NCBI RefSeq assembly: GCF_023115355.1
Contig: NZ_CP096019.1
Span: 248,001 to 312,000 of the forward strand
Origin: Halocatena salina
GTDB taxonomy: Archaea; Halobacteriota; Halobacteria; Halobacteriales; Haloarculaceae
Length of the DNA stretch: 64,000 nucleotides
Direction: 5' to 3'
The notes under the pieces are model-generated. The model was not told where the DNA came from, did not search any database, and saw only the letters and a program-made list of their open reading frames with translations. Below, piece by piece: positions 11,914-20,198 of the stretch; position 1 is the stretch's first letter, and each line of letters begins with the position of its first letter. Position numbers and translations under genes: made by a program.

Positions 11914-13668
11914 ATGACCGAGTATTTCGAGGTACACGAGCGCGACGGAGCGGCTCGGCTGGGGGAGCTTCGGCTTGACGATCCGCTTCAGACCCCTGCG
12001 CTCGTCGACGACGTGATCGAGGATGGGGGAAGCCTCTGGTCCGAGAAACGTACATTACCGTCGGGAAATACTTCAACGCTCACCGTTCTTCCACACCGGG
12101 GGTTCCCGGCGGGAACCGCCCCTGAGGTGCAAACGGCGTTCGAAGTCGATTACCCCACTGTCGACTTCCCGAGTGCGGTCGTCGTCTCAAGTGAGACTGC
12201 ACGGAACCACGGCAGCGATGCGTACGTGCTTTCATCGGCACCCGGTGTCGCCGGGAATGCGGCAGCGTTCGCCGAGACGATCGTCGACGTTCGGCAATCG
12301 ATTCCGGCCGACACTGCGGTGTTGCTGTCGGGAGTCGCAACACCGGCGAACGTCGCCACCCTCGCGTACTCGGGTGTTGATCTCTTCGATAGCCACCGGG
12401 CGTACGTCCGTGGACTGGATGGCTTCTACCAGACCACAGACGGCGAGCGCTTCCTCGAAGATCTCGAGGAGCTTCCGTGTTCGTGCCCGGCTTGTCAGCA
12501 GGGGCTGGAAGCGTTCGATCGAGAAGACTGTGCCGAGCACAACGTGACAGCCCTCCAAACGGCGCTGGCTCGCGTCCGCGAGCGCATTCGATCGGGACGG
12601 CTTCGGACGTACATCGAAGGCCAAGCCCGTCACGAGGCGTGGTTGACGGCGTTGCTGCGACGGCTGGACGATCAGTACGCGTATCTCGAACAGCGGACGC
12701 CGATCGTTCGGTCGAGCACGCTGCTCGCGGCGAGCGAGGACAGCATGCGCCGGGTCGAGATCCAACGCTTCGCGGATCGGGTGTGTTCCCGGTACCGAAA
12801 CCGGTTCGAGCAGCCGCTGGTGCTCGTTCCCTGTTCTGCTCGCAAGCCCTACAGTTCCTCTCAGAGTCATGGGCAGTTCCACGACGCGATCAACTACCGG
12901 GCACACAAGGTATCGATGACGTCGCCCATTGGCGTCGTTCCCCAAGAGCTGGAGTACACCTATCCAGCCCAGCAGTACGACAGCGTCGTGACGGGTCGCT
13001 GGTCAAAAGAGGAGATCGACTTCGTTGCTCGCGTTCTCACCCGGTATCTCGAGCGCAACGAGTATCCGCGTTACATCGCCCACGTCCCACCCGGTGGATA
13101 TCGATCGATCTGTGAACAGGTCGAGGACAGAACTGACATCGAGTTCGAGTACACCGTCGACGATCATCCGACGACAGCCGAGTCCTTGGAGACGCTTCGG
13201 GACACGCTGGCGGGCGAATCGAAATACCGCAAACGAGAACGCGAACACAACACCGTCCGCGCCATCGCTGACTACCAGTTCGGTTCTGACGCCGGATCGG
13301 AGCTGTTCGGGACGATAACGGTCGAAGGACAATTACCGTCGCTACGTATCCATGCAGCCGACGACCACGAGCAGTTAGCGACGATCGTCCCCCAGTACGG
13401 CACGCTCGCGCTCACCCTCGCCGGGGTGCGCCGCTGGGGGGCCAGCGACGTTCCGACCGATCGCGTCGAGATCGATCCGTTCGTCCCGCAAGGCAGCGTG
13501 CTCGCTCCCGGTATCGAACGAGCGAGCGAATCGATCCGTGTGGGCGATGAAGTACTCATCGAGGGGCCGAAGGCGCTTGCTGTCGGCCGAGCGGCGATGA
13601 GTGGACCGGAAATGAACACGAGTACGCGTGGTATCGCGGTCGAAGTCCGACACGTCGAAGAACGTTAG
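11914..13668 (+). CDS. arcS: Archaeosine synthase (ArcS/TgtA2)
   Basis: ArcS adds an amine to preQ0 in tRNA (in many archaea via lysine and a radical SAM partner) to give archaeosine. It is a paralogue of TgtA that has lost the transglycosylase active site. The zinc motif PCSCPACQQ is present (about residue 187), and the diagnostic ArcS motif VPCSARKPYSSSQSHGQ lies near 305. A C-terminal PUA domain for RNA binding occupies about the last 75 residues (PQGSVLAPGIERASESIRVG). Two in-frame ATGs exist, at 11905 and 11914; the second matches the MTEYFEVHERDGAARLGEL family start. The gene ends overlapping the stop of msrB on the other strand by four bases. Confidence 0.92.
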   Translation: MTEYFEVHERDGAARLGELRLDDPLQTPALVDDVIEDGGSLWSEKRTLPSGNTSTLTVLPHRGFPAGTAPEVQTAFEVDYPTVDFPSAVVVSSETARNHGSDAYVLSSAPGVAGNAAAFAETIVDVRQSIPADTAVLLSGVATPANVATLAYSGVDLFDSHRAYVRGLDGFYQTTDGERFLEDLEELPCSCPACQQGLEAFDREDCAEHNVTALQTALARVRERIRSGRLRTYIEGQARHEAWLTALLRRLDDQYAYLEQRTPIVRSSTLLAASEDSMRRVEIQRFADRVCSRYRNRFEQPLVLVPCSARKPYSSSQSHGQFHDAINYRAHKVSMTSPIGVVPQELEYTYPAQQYDSVVTGRWSKEEIDFVARVLTRYLERNEYPRYIAHVPPGGYRSICEQVEDRTDIEFEYTVDDHPTTAESLETLRDTLAGESKYRKREREHNTVRAIADYQFGSDAGSELFGTITVEGQLPSLRIHAADDHEQLATIVPQYGTLALTLAGVRRWGASDVPTDRVEIDPFVPQGSVLAPGIERASESIRVGDEVLIEGPKALAVGRAAMSGPEMNTSTRGIAVEVRHVEER

Positions 13669-14078
13669 TTTTCAGCGTCGTCTTCAGCGTCAAAATCGAG
13701 CGCGACGGAGTTGATGCAGTAGCGCTTGCCGGTCGGCTCGGGACCGTCCTCGAACACGTGACCGAGGTGCCCGCCACACCGGGCGCAGACGACCTCCGTC
13801 CGGTCCATCCCGTGGCTGGTGTCGCGGTGGAACTCCACGGCGTCATCGTTGGCGTCGAAGAAGCTCGGCCACCCTGTCTTTGATCCGAACTTCGTCTCCG
13901 AATCGAACAGCGCCGCACCACACCCGCCACACCGGTACGTGCCGTCACCACTCTCGTCGATGTACTCCCCGCTGAACTTGGGCTCGGTCCCGCTTTCGCG
14001 GAGAATCCGGTACTCCTCCTCGGTGAGAACATCCCGCCACTCCGATTCGGTCTCGGGAAGGGACTCCTGTTCGGACAT
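13665..14078 (-). CDS. msrB: Peptide-methionine (R)-S-oxide reductase
   Basis: MsrB reduces the R form of methionine sulfoxide in proteins using thioredoxin-like donors. The 137-residue protein is full length. It has two zinc-binding CxxC pairs (CGGC near residue 50 and CARC near 97), the GWPSFFDA and HLGHVFEDGP motifs, and the catalytic cysteine in KRYCINSVALDF. No signal peptide or MsrA fusion is present. It is convergent with arcS, sharing four bases at the stops, so transcripts from both strands probably overlap. Confidence 0.95.
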   Translation of the reverse strand: MSEQESLPETESEWRDVLTEEEYRILRESGTEPKFSGEYIDESGDGTYRCGGCGAALFDSETKFGSKTGWPSFFDANDDAVEFHRDTSHGMDRTEVVCARCGGHLGHVFEDGPEPTGKRYCINSVALDFDAEDDAEN

Positions 14079-14255
14079 ACGAAACGATAGGTGCGCAGGG
14101 TCGTTGTGGGTTTCGGTCGATCGTGTGGTGGTGAACGTCTGCTGGGATGAGGGGATGGATTGTACAAGGGATGTAAGTATTGCCTTCAGTACTAATCAAA
14201 ACAATTACTGATCGATCCATCGAGCGATGGCCGCAAGGAGCGACCGACGCAGGGC

Positions 14256-14495
14256 CTACGGCCCGAGGATCGATCGGAACGTTCGGTATGCCTCTCCGTC
14301 GACGTCGAGCAAGCGTTTTCGGACGAAATGCCCTTTGGCACAGCGTTTGATCTCGACGCTACCATCCTCCTCTTTGCTGATCCGGGTGTTCACTGCCGCC
14401 TCACACCACGGCTTGATGCACGTCTCCCGAGCCACCGGCTCGTCGTTCTGGTCACAACCGATACTTTTCTCTACGTCCGTGTCGTTAGGATCCAT
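14256..14495 (-). CDS. Small cysteine-rich haloarchaeal protein
   Basis: A 79-residue protein of unknown function. Four cysteines are visible, in IGCDQN, ETCIKPWCE and KRCAKGH, in an arrangement that could bind one zinc ion, followed by a basic stretch (FVRKRLL). The ATG at 14495 was preferred to an upstream GTG/TTG extension because the 21 extra residues look unstructured and out of character. Such small zinc proteins are numerous in haloarchaea; this one is not one that I can name. Confidence 0.5.
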   Translation of the reverse strand: MDPNDTDVEKSIGCDQNDEPVARETCIKPWCEAAVNTRISKEEDGSVEIKRCAKGHFVRKRLLDVDGEAYRTFRSILGP

Positions 14496-14703
14496 TGGTG
14501 TTCGACCTCTCGCATTACGCGGGTTCGCAGAACACCGCCGTTCGGGTGTCTTCAGCACCCGGACACTTTTCGCGTGTCAAGCGGCGTTCGTGCTTCTCAT
14601 CGCAACGTGTGAGTAAAAAGCTATCGAACAGGAAAGAAAACTGTCAATACTACTGATCGATCAGCTCTGGTGGATAGGGAGGACCCTCCGACGGACGACA
14701 ATT

Positions 14704-14817
14704 TTAGAACACGTCAAGATATTCTTCTATGATCTCCTGTTCGTCGGCGTCGGCGAAGTGCACCTCCGGGAAGCAGTCGGTTTTCGAATCCAAATCCGAG
14801 GCTTCAGCTATGCACAT
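14704..14817 (-). CDS. Possible 37-residue acidic microprotein
   Basis: An open frame starts at ATG 14817 and stops at TAA 14704. The product is very acidic (about ten Asp/Glu), ends EEYLDVF and has two cysteines. Amino-acid composition is typical of haloarchaeal proteins, and an AT-rich stretch with a TATA-like run lies upstream at about 14830-14850. It is the only coding-like item in the 467 bases between 14496 and 14962. There is no family evidence, so it could be chance or the end of a decayed gene. Confidence 0.3.
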   Translation of the reverse strand: MCIAEASDLDSKTDCFPEVHFADADEQEIIEEYLDVF

Positions 14818-14962
14818 ATGTTTTCACCTAACCATATAATATATGCATCGTCGCTGAAGAGTAAATATGAAGCAAAATGGCAGACTCGCCCGCCGTTTAC
14901 ACCGCTATGCTTGGTGTTCGTGTGGTGGGTTGCTCCGCTTCAATCGTACGGTAAATCCAATC

Positions 14963-15331
14963 ATGTTCGACGACGCCTACTACAGTTGGCAAGAGGAACC
15001 GGACGACGGCGAGTACGAACTCCAGTTCGATCATTTCGAATCAATCGATAGCTATCACGACCATGCTGGCCTCTTTATTGTTGACAAAAAGGAGCGACCC
15101 CTCGGTGATATCACTGTCCCGACTGCCGAAGTCCCCGAGATTGACCCGGATGATGTTGTCAGAACAGCCATCTTTCATGGATCGGTTGAGGATGGAGAAC
15201 TTACCACATTGAGATACGATCCCGAACTTACGGAACAACGGCGTAAGGAAGCGGAAGAGCTTTCTAAGCGGGTTCAGGGGGAAACTGATGATGGATCGAA
15301 TCCGAACGCGAGCGAGGATAGAGATCAATAG
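14963..15331 (+). CDS. DUF3006-like protein paired with a metallo-beta-lactamase
   Basis: A 122-residue acidic protein. The central part (about residues 25-85: DHAGLFIVDKKERPLGDITV, then an EVPEIDPDDVVR and YDPELTEQRRKEAEELSKR run) resembles the small DUF3006 domain, which in bacteria is commonly encoded beside ComEC-type metallo-beta-lactamase proteins. The start was set at ATG 14963; an upstream in-frame ATG at 14867 would add 32 basic residues with a CxC, which do not look like the rest. It ends two bases before the start of the metallo-beta-lactamase gene, so the two are translated together. The domain call is by resemblance only. Confidence 0.55.
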   Translation: MFDDAYYSWQEEPDDGEYELQFDHFESIDSYHDHAGLFIVDKKERPLGDITVPTAEVPEIDPDDVVRTAIFHGSVEDGELTTLRYDPELTEQRRKEAEELSKRVQGETDDGSNPNASEDRDQ

Positions 15332-15333
15332 GG

Positions 15334-16509
15334 ATGGCAGTCCGCGATGGCAGCGGTAAGTTTCATATAGATGTCATCGATGTCGGACAGGCTGATAGCA
15401 TCCTGCTTGAAGGTCCGGACGGAACTACGATGCTCGTTGATTCAGGACATTGGCATGATGAGGGTGAACATGTCCTTGATCATCTCAATGAGAGCGAGAT
15501 AGATCACCTCGATTATCTCGTGGCAACTCATGATGATTGGGATCACATTGGTGGACACGCCGATATCATCGATGAATTCGGCTCTGACGGAATTGGAACA
15601 GTGTATAGTCCCGCGAAAGAAGAAGAGGGAAAACGGTCGGCAGCGGTGACTCAATACAAGACGGCACTGGCAGAGAATGGAATAAAGGAAAACCAACTCC
15701 ATGCGGAGTCTGCTGCGCTTGATCTCGATGGCGTAACCATCGATATACTCAATCCCTCAGAAGAAATTGACAGTAAAGCACGAAACGAAAACAGTGTCGT
15801 CATGCAAGCCACGTACGGAAAGCAAAGTATTCTACTGGCTGGCGATATTAAAGGGAAGGCTGAAACACAACTCGTCGAAAAACATGCTGAGCAACTCAGT
15901 GACGTTGATGTGCTCAAAACCGCTCATCACGGGTCAAAATTTTCGACAGGCGAGGCGTTGTTGGAGACGTGCGAGCCTGAGACCGTCCTGTATTCCCATG
16001 CCGAAGAGAGCAAACACGATCACCCGGACACGGAGACAGTCACCCGGACGACACAGGCCGACAACGCACACTCGACGGCCCTTCATGGAACGACTAGCCT
16101 GACGTTCGACGGCCAAAATGAGATCGCCGTCGAGCACACGAACGACACGGACCTTCACGATGCCACCGATTTCGCAGCCCTGATCCATTACCACCGAGAC
16201 AATGACGTGGCCCTTGATGAGATCGACTCGATCGCTCGCAGTGACCTCCTCGCCAGTATTCCTTATGAAATCGTCGACAACGCGTCCATCATCGAGGATT
16301 CACAGGCGGTACAAACACTTCAAGACGAGAACGAAGCACTTCAGGACCAACTCGATGAGGCAACTGAAGCGCTCGACGCAAAGGACGACGTGATCGACGC
16401 GAAGGACGATGTGATCGACGCAAAAGATAATATAATCGACGAAAAGGACCAGCGGATTGAGCAGTTGCAAAATCGTCTTGCGGCGCTCGAACAAGCCACT
16501 AAGGAGTAG
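15334..16509 (+). CDS. ComEC-type metallo-beta-lactamase fold protein with C-terminal coiled coil
   Basis: A 391-residue soluble protein. The metal-binding set of ComEC/Rec2-like metallo-beta-lactamases is complete: THDDWDHIGG (HxDxDH, about residue 69), LLAGDIKG, KTAHHGSKFSTG and a further HDHP motif near 233. It lacks the membrane competence domain of ComEC and has no visible signal peptide, so a cytoplasmic hydrolase of nucleic acid, nucleotide or phosphoester is possible. After about residue 320 comes a coiled coil with a near-perfect seven-residue repeat (DVIDAKD and variants, four times), mirrored by a 21-base repeat at about 16375-16450. It stops at TAG 16507-16509, but the same frame continues as coding-like sequence to 16821. 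Confidence 0.78.
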   Translation: MAVRDGSGKFHIDVIDVGQADSILLEGPDGTTMLVDSGHWHDEGEHVLDHLNESEIDHLDYLVATHDDWDHIGGHADIIDEFGSDGIGTVYSPAKEEEGKRSAAVTQYKTALAENGIKENQLHAESAALDLDGVTIDILNPSEEIDSKARNENSVVMQATYGKQSILLAGDIKGKAETQLVEKHAEQLSDVDVLKTAHHGSKFSTGEALLETCEPETVLYSHAEESKHDHPDTETVTRTTQADNAHSTALHGTTSLTFDGQNEIAVEHTNDTDLHDATDFAALIHYHRDNDVALDEIDSIARSDLLASIPYEIVDNASIIEDSQAVQTLQDENEALQDQLDEATEALDAKDDVIDAKDDVIDAKDNIIDEKDQRIEQLQNRLAALEQATKE

Positions 16510-16821
16510 ACAGCTTCTGAAGAGCAGACTACCTCGAACGCTACAGAGCGGGAACTATCCCCGAAGACGGCTCAAGACAGTCGCGGGTCAGGGCTGGGGA
16601 ATGGCTCGGAAACGGCGGGCGATCAAACGAACGCGGCCGTGGAGGAGTTCCAGTCGCAGTCCAACAGTAACGGCTCTCAGGCCAGTGTCGGGAGTGAGAT
16701 GGCAAATAGCTCACCCAAAGACGAGAACCCAGCGGATACAACACACAACACCAGTGAAAGCGATGATGAAGGTGACGACAAAAGCAGTAGAAATAGTCAG
16801 TCCCGGCGTCGCCGACGATAG
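16510..16821 (+). pseudogene. In-frame continuation of the metallo-beta-lactamase gene after a TAG
   Basis: Directly after the TAG stop, the same reading frame runs open for 103 codons to a second TAG at 16819-16821. The sequence is Ser/Thr/Asn/Gln/Glu/Asp-rich with almost no hydrophobic residues and ends in five arginines. That composition suits a disordered tail of a haloarchaeal protein and is unlikely in non-coding DNA of this region. The simplest reading is that the ancestral protein was about 495 residues and a nonsense change removed the tail. A separate small gene starting at ATG 16699 in this frame is less likely. Confidence 0.5.
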
Positions 16822-16928
16822 ATCGAGTTTATAAGCCAGCTCAGATTCTCAGTCAGATCGTCATGAGGTTCCAGTCATGCATGAATGGCAGCTACAGAAT
16901 GAACTTGAAATATCCATACGTTCGTAGA

Positions 16929-16999
16929 ATGGGCCGACACGGATTTGAACCTCGGTCAGTTCACTCACATCTGTTCGGTTCCTTCCCTGCTTCAAATCC
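16929..16999 (-). repeat. tRNA-Ile 3'-end-derived repeat, copy 1 (att-like)
   Basis: The first 24 bases are identical to the 3' end of the tRNA-Ile gene at 18418-18491 (T arm and acceptor). The copy then continues as a further 47 bases shared with copy 2 at 18285. Over 70 bases the two copies differ at only a few positions. Inside the repeat, GGATTTGAA and TTCAAATCC form an inverted pair about 40 bases apart. Duplicated tRNA 3' ends of this kind are the usual mark of site-specific integration. Confidence 0.75.
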
Positions 17000-17040
17000 A
17001 GTCCTACTCTTCGCTCACTTCGTTCGCTCATGCGTGGTCC

Positions 17041-17075
17041 AGATTTGAATTGTGGAGGTCCCAGTTATTAGGACC
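17041..17075 (-). pseudogene. Degenerate tRNA-like segment
   Basis: On the minus strand, this segment aligns with the anticodon loop, anticodon 3' stem, variable loop and T arm of the nearby tRNA-Ile (TAATAACTGGGACC against TGATAACCGGGAGG, then CCACAATTCAAATC against CCACGGTTCAAATC). It matches at roughly three quarters of positions but cannot fold fully. I read it as a decayed tRNA copy left by earlier insertion or excision events. It could also be chance similarity to T-arm sequence. Confidence 0.35.
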
Positions 17076-17465
17076 TCTATTCCTCGAATCCGGGCGCTTT
17101 GGAGAGCGATAACAGAAGAGCTTGAACCTCTCTCGCCCCAGCTGGCGAGAGATATGTACCTTGGCACGAGACAACATGAGGTATCTCAAAACATACTGTA
17201 AGGAGTCAGGCGACACCATCCGGAATATTGACGGAATACAGTCGATGATGAGGACGAACGATTCGCTCACTCGGTGGTCAGAATATGGTTCTTAAGAGGT
17301 AAACACTTGACTGAGCAGCAGAAACTATTGCGAACCAAATATCAAGCTAGATGTACAGCGCGTATCTCGCAAGCTGATCACGTGGGTAATACATTTTGAA
17401 AAACAGTCAAAGGCACCAATCGGAGGGCGGACAGTGAAGTGGTATGGTTGAATCGTTTAGTTATT

Positions 17466-17663
17466 TTATTTTCGCAATTCTTCCCGTGCTTGAAGGGAAT
17501 ACCGATGGGCCAAAACTGTCAAAACAATAAGGAAGCCGATCGCTGAAATCCATTTGGTCATCTCTAAATTTTCGATACCCAGTTCCCCGATTATGATGGA
17601 TATGAATAGCCCAGTAAGGATAGTAATCATTAACGGGAGTCTTGGGTTTACTTCTTCGAACAT
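17466..17663 (-). CDS. Small two-TM membrane protein A (paralogue of the gene at 17744)
   Basis: A 65-residue protein with two hydrophobic segments (about residues 9-26 and 38-55) and a short charged C-terminus. Its start, MFEEVNPRLPLMITILTGLF, is clearly homologous to MFDEFDPGLPMMVTFLVGLF of the divergent gene. Translation is placed at ATG 17663 because it aligns with the start of the partner; a TATAAATA box at 17686-17693 lies 25 bases upstream. The function is unknown. The pair sits between the two tRNA-derived repeats, so it is probably cargo of an integrated element. Confidence 0.6.
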   Translation of the reverse strand: MFEEVNPRLPLMITILTGLFISIIIGELGIENLEMTKWISAIGFLIVLTVLAHRYSLQAREELRK

Positions 17664-17683
17664 GATTGGGAACATGAATAGGA

Positions 17684-17722
17684 TGTATAAATAGCTGTGG
17701 ATAATTGCGGAATATTTTTATA
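17684..17722. promoter_or_regulatory. Divergent TATA boxes of the two-TM protein pair
   Basis: The 80-base spacer between the two divergent starts has TATAAATA at 17686-17693, placed 25 bases before the minus-strand ATG, and ATTTTTATAT at 17713-17722, placed about 27 bases before the plus-strand ATG. Both positions fit leaderless haloarchaeal transcription. Confidence 0.5.
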
Positions 17723-17743
17723 TTGAATAGCCAAACATAGATT

Positions 17744-17962
17744 ATGTTTGATGAATTTGACCCCGGACTCCCAATGATGGTGACATTCCTTGTGGGTTTG
17801 TTCCTTACCATCGTGTGGGTTGATGTACAACCAAAGACGCATTTGGCCCTCTCTTTTGCTTCTATCATTGGTTTCTATATCATATTAGGAGTCATATCCT
17901 TCAGATATCACTGCGTGGCGAAGGATGTTATCCTTTCAGGTCAAACGACTGATGGGGATTGA
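17744..17962 (+). CDS. Small two-TM membrane protein B (paralogue of the gene at 17663)
   Basis: A 72-residue protein with two hydrophobic segments (about residues 10-27 and 37-55), then a polar tail. It shares the MF-[DE]-E-x-[ND]-P-x-LP start, the GLF end of helix one, the I-x-G-F core of helix two and the RY after it with the divergent partner, so the two arose by inverted duplication or were acquired as a pair. No signal peptide is cleavable in appearance. Function is unknown; small two-helix proteins may be holin-like, toxin-like or regulatory subunits, but nothing in the sequence decides this. Confidence 0.6.
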   Translation: MFDEFDPGLPMMVTFLVGLFLTIVWVDVQPKTHLALSFASIIGFYIILGVISFRYHCVAKDVILSGQTTDGD

Positions 17963-18284
17963 ATTCCACCGTTGGTCCTGACTATGATGCTGTGATGAAT
18001 ATAGCGGTAAGTACGCAAAATAAGAAGACACGAGCCCACGCTGAAAGCCCTTCATCAGGACCCCAAGTCCTGATTAGCAGCTGAGCTTTGCTCGGCGAGC
18101 CCTCAACGACCGAAACCAAAGGCCGAGCAAGGGCGAGCGAGCAGAGCGGAAGGATGTCACATGTGGATGAGTTCCAGATGGGGAGCAGCGCAGGTCAGGC
18201 TCTCACGAAATAGATTCCGAAATGACAGGTGCAAATCACTGTGTTGTAGTGGTCTGTGTCGAATGAAAACCGTTCAGCAAAAGC
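17963..18284. other. 322 bases with no gene recognised
   Basis: The stretch downstream of the plus-strand two-TM gene has no open frame that I can support. It holds an inverted pair, AGGACC/AAGTCCT with AATCAGGACTTG, near 18057-18076 and a purine-rich run with GAGCGAGCAGAGCGG at about 18133-18150. It may be remnant element DNA. Confidence 0.4.
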
Positions 18285-18354
18285 ATGGGCCGACACGGAT
18301 TTGAACCTCGGTCAGTCCACTCACTTCGTTCGTTTCCTTCCCTGATTCAAATCC
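18285..18354 (-). repeat. tRNA-Ile 3'-end-derived repeat, copy 2 (att-like)
   Basis: A second copy of the 70-base repeat, 1356 bases after copy 1 and in the same orientation. It begins with the same 24 bases as the tRNA 3' end and shares the following part (CTCGGTCAGT, then CACTCAC and TTCCTTCCCTG) with copy 1 but not with the tRNA. Copies 1 and 2 flank the two-TM gene pair, and the intact tRNA gene begins 63 bases further on. Confidence 0.75.
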
Positions 18355-18417
18355 GCTTACTCCAACGATATGTACACATCAACAGAAGTACAGAAAGTGA
18401 TGACGAATTTGAAAATA

Positions 18418-18491
18418 TGGGCCGACACGGATTTGAACCGTGGACCTCCCGGTTATCAGCCGAGCGCTCAACCTAACTGAGCTATCGGCCC
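18418..18491 (-). tRNA. tRNA-Ile(GAT)
   Basis: Read on the minus strand, the 74 bases fold as a normal cloverleaf: acceptor GGGCCGA with TCGGCCC, D arm with AGTTAGGTTGAGC, anticodon loop CTGATAA giving GAT, and T arm with GGTTCAAATCC. The discriminator is A and CCA is not encoded. A GTTTAAAC box at 18523-18530 lies about 35 bases upstream. The 3' end is the source of the repeats at 16929 and 18285. Confidence 0.96.
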
Positions 18492-18612
18492 GCGAACGCA
18501 TTCATCCGTACTGCCCAGTCCCGTTTAAACCTTACCAAAACAAATTCCGGGGAGGGCCGTTTGCTCATCGGAAACGACCCACGGAGTGCCACGGTACGAT
18601 CGTTATACCAGC

Positions 18613-19122
18613 TCAGTCTTTTTTGCTATCGCCATCGATGCTGTACTCGTCCTCGCCGAGATTGTACGTCGTCGTGGTTTGCTCGTTACTGGCGTTGGCG
18701 TTAGGATTCGGAAAGCCACCGGTGTAAACCGTTCCAGTAACGAATCCATCACTTTTGCCGTCGAGATACGGCGTGATGACGTACTTCTGTACCAACAGTC
18801 TGACCGGATACCGCGTTGGGGGGATGACGAGGAGCAACCCACAGAGATCGGTAACCAGACCGGGGGTGAGGAAGAAGGCCCCTGCGGCGATGAGTAACGC
18901 TCCATCGACGAGTTCAGAATCGGGAATCTCACCATGAGACAGCTTGCGGTTGATCCGCCGGACAGTGTGGCGACCCTCCGCCCGAACGAGCAACATCCCG
19001 ATGAGAGCCGTCAGTACAACTAGTAGAACCGTCGCAACCGGTCCGATGAGTTGTGCCACCCCGACGAGAAGGACGATGTCCGCAAGCGGGATGAGCAACA
19101 GCAGGGCGATGATCCGCTTCAT
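18613..19122 (-). CDS. FxsA family membrane protein
   Basis: A 169-residue protein with about three or four hydrophobic segments in its first 110 residues, in the FxsA pattern: MKRIIALLLLIPLADIVLLV, a GPVATVLLVVLTALIGMLLV helix, then a charged RAEGRHTVRRINRKL loop and an IAAGAFFLTPGLVTDLCGLLL helix pair. FxsA suppresses phage T7 exclusion in E. coli; its normal role is unknown. The polar C-terminus is typical of the haloarchaeal form. The ATG at 19122 is where family similarity starts. It follows the tRNA-Ile on the same strand. Confidence 0.85.
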   Translation of the reverse strand: MKRIIALLLLIPLADIVLLVGVAQLIGPVATVLLVVLTALIGMLLVRAEGRHTVRRINRKLSHGEIPDSELVDGALLIAAGAFFLTPGLVTDLCGLLLVIPPTRYPVRLLVQKYVITPYLDGKSDGFVTGTVYTGGFPNPNANASNEQTTTTYNLGEDEYSIDGDSKKD

Positions 19123-19220
19123 AGCTGGCCTATGATCTCCGGGGGCAAACGTGTTATGTTCCGGTCCGTGATCGGATACATCATCAAACCACACCCGATT
19201 CGCCGTGGAAGCCGCCCGGA

Positions 19221-20198
19221 TTACTCGGCGGATTCGTCCGGCTCTTCGCCCTCGATCTCCTCGACGATTTCATCGGCATCAACGTCGACATCGTCGAGCG
19301 CTTCTTCGATGTCGCCGCCGCCAGCACCGCCCATCATTCCGGGCATACCCATTCCGCCCATCGGGCTGTCGTCGATGATCTCCTGAACGACGACGCGGTC
19401 GATCCCGGTCTGATCGATGAGCTGCTGGGCGATCTGCTGTTTCTGGAACATCCATTGCTGGTTCATCGCCAGCTGCGGGGTCGATTCGATGTACAGCGAT
19501 TTCTTCTCGACGGTGACCGTCTCGTATTCGGGTTCAGCCTCGTCTTCGTCTTCATCTTCGCTTTCGACCGGCTGTTGTTCTTCGACCTCGTCGGTTTGGA
19601 TCTCCATATCGAGATCGATGTCGAAGAACATGCCCATGAGACCCTCAGCGCGTTCGAGATCGTCTTCGACCTGCTCGACGATCTCGTACTCGTACTCGAT
19701 GTCCTCGCCAGCGAGCGGATGGTTGAAGTCGACGCGGGCGCGACCGCCGATGATGGTTTCGAGGTATCCCTGTTGTTGATCGATCTGCACCTGTGCGCCG
19801 GGATAACGGTCGTCTTCTGGGATCTTTTCGGCGCTCACGGTACGCACTTCTTCCTGATCGTACTCCCCGAAGGCTTCTTCGGAGGGGATGGTAACCGAGC
19901 CGCTGTCACCGACCTCTTTGCCGATGATGTCCTCTTCGACGCCCGGGAAGATGTGTTCGGAACCGAGAACGATGACGCGCGGCTCGAAGGTTTGATCCTC
20001 CCCAACCCCTTCTTCTTCTGCGACTTCCTCGTCGGTCGTATCGACCAATGATCCGTCCTCGACCGTGCGGGCAGTGTATGCGAGACGGACGAAATCGTCC
20101 TCTTGCAGCCCCGTCCTGTTCTGTTCGGTCGCCTCCGGCGACTCCGCTTCGGTTTCTGCATCAGATCCTGCGTTCGTCTCTTCTGGTTCGCCAGTCAT
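19221..20198 (-). CDS. FKBP-type peptidyl-prolyl cis-trans isomerase (SlyD-like) with long acidic tail
   Basis: A 325-residue protein. After an acidic N-terminus, residues about 30-180 form an FKBP domain of the SlyD type, with an inserted-in-flap chaperone domain: LAYTARTVEDGSLVDTT, FPGVEEDIIGKEVGDSG, the IF domain with PEDDRYPGAQV, then NHPLAGEDIEYEYEIVEQVE, which is diagnostic. The C-terminal part, about 140 residues, includes a Met/Gly-rich run (MGGMGMPGMMGGAGGGD) followed by an acidic tail; such extended proteins are normal in haloarchaea. It speeds prolyl isomerisation and holds unfolded chains in the cytoplasm. It is divergent from the CYTH gene. Confidence 0.92.
   Translation of the reverse strand: MTGEPEETNAGSDAETEAESPEATEQNRTGLQEDDFVRLAYTARTVEDGSLVDTTDEEVAEEEGVGEDQTFEPRVIVLGSEHIFPGVEEDIIGKEVGDSGSVTIPSEEAFGEYDQEEVRTVSAEKIPEDDRYPGAQVQIDQQQGYLETIIGGRARVDFNHPLAGEDIEYEYEIVEQVEDDLERAEGLMGMFFDIDLDMEIQTDEVEEQQPVESEDEDEDEAEPEYETVTVEKKSLYIESTPQLAMNQQWMFQKQQIAQQLIDQTGIDRVVVQEIIDDSPMGGMGMPGMMGGAGGGDIEEALDDVDVDADEIVEEIEGEEPDESAE

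Follow-up and report, generated by a model that had tools for sequence, protein, structure and literature searches.

A DUF3006-like/metallo-beta-lactamase gene pair at a variable tRNA-Ile site of Halocatena salina, and its possible place in a haloarchaeal conflict system

Pairs of a metallo-beta-lactamase (MBL) and a small DUF3006 protein are already known. Homologous MBLs occur in haloarchaeal lamin-tail lipoproteins and in the pairs of Bacillota and Deinococcus, and among the archaea a detectably homologous small partner adjoins them. The MBL mostly comes first in these pairs (in Deinococcus the small gene does), and the haloarchaeal ones often have a lipobox and a lamin tail. In contrast, in the form that we describe here the small gene precedes an MBL that lacks an export signal and ends in a disordered tail. 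Its closest described counterparts in gene arrangement are the bacteria-killing T4SS effectors of the Xanthomonadales (X-Tfe), which bind VirD4 through a shared C-terminal domain and usually have their immunity genes (X-Tfi) upstream (PMC6536674). Both have a variable N-terminus, a common C-terminal region, a VirD4-family ATPase, and an upstream small gene. Unlike X-Tfe, our system is archaeal, the PF19044 (VirB4-type) ATPase was not found, and a killing role is conjectural. The tails in our system are about 45 to 300 aa long, as compared to about 120 aa for the XVIPCD of X-Tfe. Within the haloarchaea, a contractile injection system (T6SS-like) with toxin-immunity pairs mediates contact-dependent antagonism (PMC11566945); unlike the module that we describe, it has downstream immunity genes and a contractile delivery device.

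The term "DUF3006" is absent from the openly licensed literature that we searched, and among the titles and abstract openings in that literature on archaeal toxins, coupling proteins, or conflict, none describes such a system. A 2019 paper in mBio reportedly concerns archaeal polymorphic toxins. The word "lactamase" is absent from the available portion of a paper on archaeal dark-matter islands (PMC4158269), and the available main text of a paper on archaeal immune strategies (PMC12988326) has no mention of lactamase, MBL, ComEC, HerA, or VirD4.

We studied a window of 64,000 nucleotides from the genome of H. salina. As a sequence-only reading had reported, a small DUF3006-like protein is encoded two bases ahead of a soluble ComEC-type MBL: the open reading frames of P0001 (14963-15331, 122 aa) and P0002 (15334-16509, 391 aa) are both on the forward strand. 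Because paralogous pairs with identical gene order recur elsewhere in the genome, the pairing is more than chance. An alternative start for P0001 at 14867 would give 154 aa; we favor 14963 because it agrees with the alignment to relatives (whose starts we chose ourselves).

P0001 matches DUF3006 (PF11213) with E = 0.0017 and 19 bits, which is below the gathering score of 32.3, so we call it DUF3006-like only. Its relatives do not reach the gathering score either (24.9 bits in locus L053, 22.7 and 22.0 bits in two others, and no match for one more). A profile of the small gene (A2, built from P0001 and 11 other rows from the genus) matches all five archaeal proteins that NCBI labels as DUF3006 (E = 4e-10 or better; one of them is from Halocatena); of five bacterial proteins with that label, none passes the inclusion threshold. 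The same profile has matches in 95 of 391 genomes of the class (E = 1e-8 or better). Judging from these profiles, P0001 is a divergent relative of DUF3006 that falls below the Pfam cut-off for membership. P0002 matches Lactamase_B with 54.3 bits. The structure model of P0001 (mean pLDDT 82.8) is a six-stranded small beta-barrel with a C-terminal helix. Its sequence has no significant match in the PDB (E = 0.17 and above, which we take as chance), and its model has no Foldseek match at E = 0.001 or better, the best being EF-P-type barrels with Z = 5.6.

The catalytic domain of P0002 covers roughly residues 12-262 (15367-16119, from Pfam, the PDB match, and alignment). Its metal-ligand motif is complete (H66-x-D68-x-D70-H71, D171, H198/H199, and H230), and a hydropathy scan finds no membrane-like segment, so both the full HxDxDH set and the missing membrane domain are as first read. 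By both sequence and fold, the best match in the PDB is the beta-lactamase-like domain of ComEC from Moorella glycerini (9ic4; E = 6.6e-18 and TM 0.81 by target length for the model, which has a mean pLDDT of 68.9, with most of residues 1-140 at 80-92). The model and the motif together indicate an MBL fold with a ComEC-type active site. We rejected the idea that P0002 is a true ComEC: the MBL part of ComEC_Rec2 (TIGR00361) matches it with E = 4.5e-29 and 101.1 bits, under the cut-off of 190.05, and unlike ComEC/Rec2 it has no channel or membrane domain. The final 115 or so residues are modeled with low confidence. They comprise a helical segment that is common to the island-type MBLs of the genus (residues ~278-320, 16165-16293, by alignment) and a coiled-coil-like end whose coding sequence has a 21-bp repeat unit (16294-16506). 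PADLOC models for LmuA (Lamassu), RTasMBL, and Avs1a match parts of the MBL domain of P0002 and of the MBL of L002; no partner gene of the Lamassu, Avs, or DRT-associated MBLs is present among the 10 neighboring proteins of the window. We also note that an MBL domain matching P0002 (E = 8.5e-40) is contained in PHROG 7043, a family of phage proteins with the label "tail protein", and that HxHxDH replaces HxDxDH in a second MBL subfamily and in the protein from genome G413 (L048, L049, L050, L152, L153, and L154).

The pair occupies a variable site between msrB (SelR domain by Pfam; 13665-14078, reverse strand) and tRNA-Ile (GAT; 18418-18491, reverse strand, by tRNA prediction and Rfam). Rfam finds nothing besides this tRNA in 13600-19300. 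The last 21 bases of the tRNA's 3' end (18419) are repeated exactly, on the forward strand, at 16931-16951 and 18287-18307; no such repeats arise in shuffled sequence, and these core copies are att-like. Next to msrB is a repeated unit of about 425 bp (14250-14675), with 83-93% DNA identity to copies in the same genome and in G043, that encodes a Cys-containing small protein of 79 aa (14259-14495, reverse strand). The genome encodes this protein five times, in four cases beside an effector-type pair.

We compared the interval to five other genomes of the genus (G039, G041, G042, G043, and G044). G041 has a DUF3006-like/MBL pair of a different subfamily at this site, and the other four have no match to either pair. 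In G042, whose MsrB is 97-98% identical, about 14938-17007 is missing (boundaries by eye) and the flanks align; smaller stretches are missing as well, and only the upstream part of the ~425-bp unit is kept. G043 lacks about 14117-17417 and has a 3' fragment of tRNA-Ile at the junction. (The msrB and MBL matches in a further genome, G040, lie on its contig C1 at coordinates identical to those in contig C1 of G041; G040 has 9% contamination and may be a mixed assembly.)

This six-genome comparison, with the window included, bears out a variable block beside tRNA-Ile, as the sequence-only reading had proposed. The other half of that proposal, that the module came from bacteria, does not hold. We built a midpoint-rooted maximum-likelihood tree from 39 MBL domains of loci that we chose. 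P0002 pairs in it with an MBL from G042 (contig C26; support 99/93, 51% identity) within a group of seven, itself included, that belong without exception to its own genus (99/95). Bacterial sequences, nine in all, form one separate group with weak support (74/87), and the haloarchaeal lamin-tail MBLs form a third (97/93). Long branches in this tree lead to G413, two ComEC sequences, Deinococcus, and a Clostridia MAG. We rejected bacterial import on the basis of this tree. A viral origin was rejected as well: the viral contigs hold no relative of the coupling ATPase that is discussed below, and two MBL relatives in them are at 30-32% identity (L204 and L205).

To describe the arrangement of these genes, we surveyed 57 MBL rows in loci of our choosing (L019 and L124 are the same locus counted twice, and the gene in L012 is split). 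The small gene is directly upstream of the MBL in 14 rows, none with a lipobox and five with a coupling ATPase within 4 kb; it is downstream in 27 rows, 21 of which have a lipobox by a simple pattern. The other 16 have neither arrangement within reach of the profiles. The upstream architecture is the island form. Intact relatives of this form consist of a DUF3006-like gene and an MBL with a disordered C-terminal tail, followed in some by a VirD4/TrwB-like coupling ATPase. Island-type MBLs tend to end in S-[LIV] plus at most three residues: 11 of 13 do so (P0002 and the G413 protein are the exceptions), as compared to 30 of 378 predicted genes in the examined loci, effectors included. These are not independent events because the island-type MBLs are related to each other. 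Beyond these 13, the MBLs of L056 and L155 fit and that of L114 does not. Some loci have more than one DUF3006-like gene, which recalls immunity arrays: L053 has three, and L118 and L046 have two each.

A VirD4/TrwB-like gene directly follows the MBL in L051, L052, L053, and L118 (a plasmid of Halocatena marina), and it is the convergent next gene in L046. The ATPases of L051, L052, and L046 match TrwB_AAD_bind with E = 1.6e-37 or better; that of L053 is 75% identical to L051's, and that of L118 is recognized by its annotation and 72% identity. All six coupling ATPases that we tested have at least one N-terminal hydrophobic segment. Among the PADLOC models, mad8 matches the ATPase (E = 6.9e-17), and HerA models do so weakly. 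A profile built from seven of these ATPases reaches 786-912 bits in four genomes (G000, which is H. salina itself, G041, G042, and G413) and at most 490 bits in the rest of the 391 genomes of the class, with three candidates scored per genome. Because the top genomes supplied the profile, only the gap below 786 bits is informative. The ATPase is also present in G040 and G043, and close relatives in other genera were not seen in the 391-genome sample. G413, which belongs to another family of the order, has an MBL and a cargo protein on either side of a coupling ATPase, with a shared tail and an upstream DUF3006-like gene. That small gene matches the DUF3006-like profile with E = 9e-7 (best single domain 1e-4), as compared to 0.16 for the best unrelated protein among 295 sequences. 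In the plasmid collection, the G413 MBL has no match and its ATPase has only partial matches at about 41% identity or less.

As for a secretion channel, none is recognized because the VirB4/TraG-type P-loop ATPase (PF19044) is missing from seven of seven genomes of the genus; this was the only family sought, and a search of 14 well-known genomes found it in four, one of them an archaeon, with no haloarchaeal positive control. In the H. salina genome, coupling ATPases are at 747, 906, and 1013 kb of contig C1 and the window pair is at 263 kb, with no coupling ATPase among its ten neighboring proteins.

The operon of G040 (L053) and that of the H. marina plasmid (L118) have the same order: a HEAT-repeat gene, a second cargo gene, DUF3006-like genes, the MBL, and the ATPase. 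The cargo's N-terminus is unlike the MBL, and its last 100 residues match MBL tails. Across 108 MBL-cargo pairs, 11 exceed z = 4, and 0 of 200 shuffles reach these scores. Eight of the 11 combine the four type-1 MBLs (L051, L052, L053, and L118) with the cargos of L053 and L118 (six at z = 7.2-8.7, two at 4.0 and 4.8), and these are not independent because the two cargos are near-copies. The MBL of L005 also matches the L118 cargo (z = 4.3). In G413 (L152), the MBL and cargo share about 90 C-terminal residues that are unlike the other tails (z = 21.6), and this cargo is related to that of L053 and L118 (E = 8e-9). A third kind of tail, of about 300 residues, joins the L002 MBL to an L115 protein that is HEAT-linked (z = 6.5 over the final 100 residues). 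N-terminal similarity is absent in two of the three pairs that we tested; the control for L002/L115 is not clean (62 vs. 41, sd 7). At three loci a second, unrelated cargo protein bears the same tail as the MBL, and by sequence comparison the sharing of tails between unrelated MBL and cargo proteins is a feature of several relatives. Among the 12 MBLs, five have no tail match above z = 4, and the same holds for L150, L151, L102, L107, and L104 among the nine cargo proteins. By eye, the Cys-containing cargos of L104, L107, and L115 seemed to share an origin with the L053 cargo; we did not uphold this, as no profile match joins them.

The L053 and L118 operons are nearly identical overall, and in 100-column blocks they diverge in two patches. 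One is the HEAT gene and the N-terminal part of the cargo (59-92% identity); the other is the last DUF3006-like gene and the first ~150 residues of the MBL (57-79%). Identity is higher elsewhere: 97-100% in the remainder of the MBL, tail included, 92-95% in the cargo tail, 92-100% in the ATPase, and 88-100% in the leading gene. One intergenic stretch is at 76-79%, and an indel carries the one additional small gene of L053. In this comparison, the variable domain and the adjacent small gene appear to have been swapped together while the trafficking part stayed constant, which is the hallmark of polymorphic toxins. At two further orthologous sites, with flanks at 82-91%, one genome has the ATPase or cargo and another lacks it (L102 vs. 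L151; L104 vs. L103 and L106). One extra small gene of L053 is 63% identical to the partner of the MBL at C1:904 and 55% identical to the partner in its own operon; the second extra gene shows little difference (57 vs. 55%). We also considered coevolution of the small gene with the MBL's N-terminus among paralogs and found no support for it: over seven paralogous pairs, the small gene tracks the N-terminus (r = 0.43) no better than the C-terminus (r = 0.50). Taken together, the relatives' pattern is like that of polymorphic effector-immunity systems and of the Xanthomonadales effectors that VirD4 reads.

Does the window copy fit this pattern? No recognizable tail was found when P0002 was compared with the tails of its relatives. 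Its TAG stop is followed by 103 in-frame codons without a stop (16507-16821 with the stop, forward strand), which is expected by chance about 2.4% of the time given the base composition. The frame after the stop (16510-16821) is rich in S, T, E, and D, and its G+C content is flat across codon positions (0.56/0.56/0.58, as compared to 0.66/0.34/0.54 in P0002). One of 105 tail comparisons with this frame exceeds z = 3.5, weakly (4.4). It is possible, going by the reading frame, that a tail was lost here, with 16510-16821 as the candidate. The window pair is probably a stand-alone, tail-less member of the family.

Our best explanation, which we would put at even chances, is that the pair is a two-gene conflict module. 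P0002 would be a metal-dependent nuclease or phosphodiesterase effector, presumably toxic, and P0001, which is encoded first in the same operon, would be its cognate small inhibitor (of the immunity or antitoxin type). In intact relatives, the disordered tail of the effector would dock on the membrane-anchored VirD4/TrwB-like ATPase, which might either push the effector into a neighboring cell or hold and activate it at the membrane. Cassettes made up of an effector N-terminus and its upstream partner gene would be exchanged, with the tail and the ATPase constant. The window copy would stand alone, with the small gene and catalytic domain intact, no ATPase nearby, and no recognizable tail. Several observations count against the conflict module: the missing PF19044 ATPase, the paralogs in which the small gene tracks the MBL's N-terminus no better than its C-terminus, the MBLs and cargo proteins that have no tail match, and the flat codon positions after the window copy's stop. 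In addition, nine of the 14 island copies, the window copy among them, have no adjoining ATPase, and the MBL family has exported relatives besides. More tentatively, and with clearly less than even confidence, we suggest a haloarchaeal polymorphic effector-immunity system that is read by a VirD4/TrwB-type ATPase and does without a classical type IV secretion machine. Its MBL nucleases and other cargo would have exchangeable N-termini and C-terminal tails specific to each lineage. Upstream DUF3006-like or HEAT-repeat proteins would guard this cargo, which would be delivered to, or activated against, competitors, and the window pair would be a stand-alone member. The probabilities that we have in mind for the conflict module, for export, and for defence within the cell (below) overlap and do not sum to one.

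The main rival is intracellular antiviral defence, because PADLOC models match both the ATPase and MBLs of this kind (LmuA, RTasMBL, and Avs1a for P0002 and the L002 MBL; mad8 and weakly HerA for the ATPase). An ATPase of the HerA/VirD4 superfamily would hold effectors by their tails and release or activate the MBL nuclease upon infection, and the DUF3006-like protein would silence it. This overlaps the hold-and-activate branch of the conflict module, and the failure to find a secretion channel (PF19044, seven genomes) would suit it. On the other hand, the ATPases have N-terminal hydrophobic segments and TrwB/TraG domains, we saw no sensor protein, and the 10 window neighbors include no PADLOC partner, barring a weak DpdA match of a TGT-family protein. 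On balance, defence seems rather unlikely. It is slightly less probable still that the window copy has no function and is a remnant in decay. The open codons after the stop, the missing tail and ATPase, and the absence of the pair from the closest relative by MsrB (G042) would all fit decay, and yet both frames are intact and the ligand motif is complete.

We give lower odds to an ordinary pair of enzymes, in which an MBL phosphodiesterase and its small DUF3006 regulator are an intracellular offshoot of the exported lamin-tail pair and have no role in conflict. Pairs of MBL and DUF3006 are indeed widespread in haloarchaea and are also found in Bacillota and Deinococcus, but the gene order, the lack of an export signal, the new tails, the ATPase linkage, and the cassette exchange are seen only in the island form (except that Deinococcus also has the small gene first). 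Least probable, and in our view improbable, is a DNA-transfer module in which the MBL processes DNA that is pumped by the coupling ATPase during conjugation or mating and the tails are relaxase-like transfer signals. Two more distant haloarchaeal coupling proteins do sit behind a relaxase (L119 by Pfam and L120 by annotation), and the H. marina operon is on a plasmid. We also counted in its favor the neighbors of L051 and L052, which we take to be Orc1/Cdc6-like. However, the H. marina operon has no annotated relaxase in the surrounding 19.7 kb, there is no PF19044 ATPase, the second cargo has no nuclease domain by Pfam, and a relaxase would not be expected to undergo cassette exchange with upstream genes.

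If the conflict module is the right explanation, then DUF3006 gains a testable role as the inhibitor of its MBL partner. There would also be an archaeal conflict system that is built on a coupling ATPase alone, besides the haloarchaeal contractile device (PMC11566945), and binding of the tail to the ATPase would be a simple readout of how archaeal conjugation-type motors choose their substrates.

Several of the loci have oddities of their own. In L050 (7138-9367), a DUF3006-like gene is followed by a diverged MBL-type protein of 640 aa that ends in GFSL. At L114 (7213-8319, from G043), which is orthologous to the site at C1:1270 of G000, the MBL seems to lack an intact N-terminal half. In the H. 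salina genome itself, at C1:750 (L102, 8627-10198), stops interrupt a second-cargo gene that neighbors a coupling ATPase. Finally, L122, a 21-kb plasmid of Haladaptatus halobius, has several protein accessions twice, as if part of it had been duplicated head to tail.
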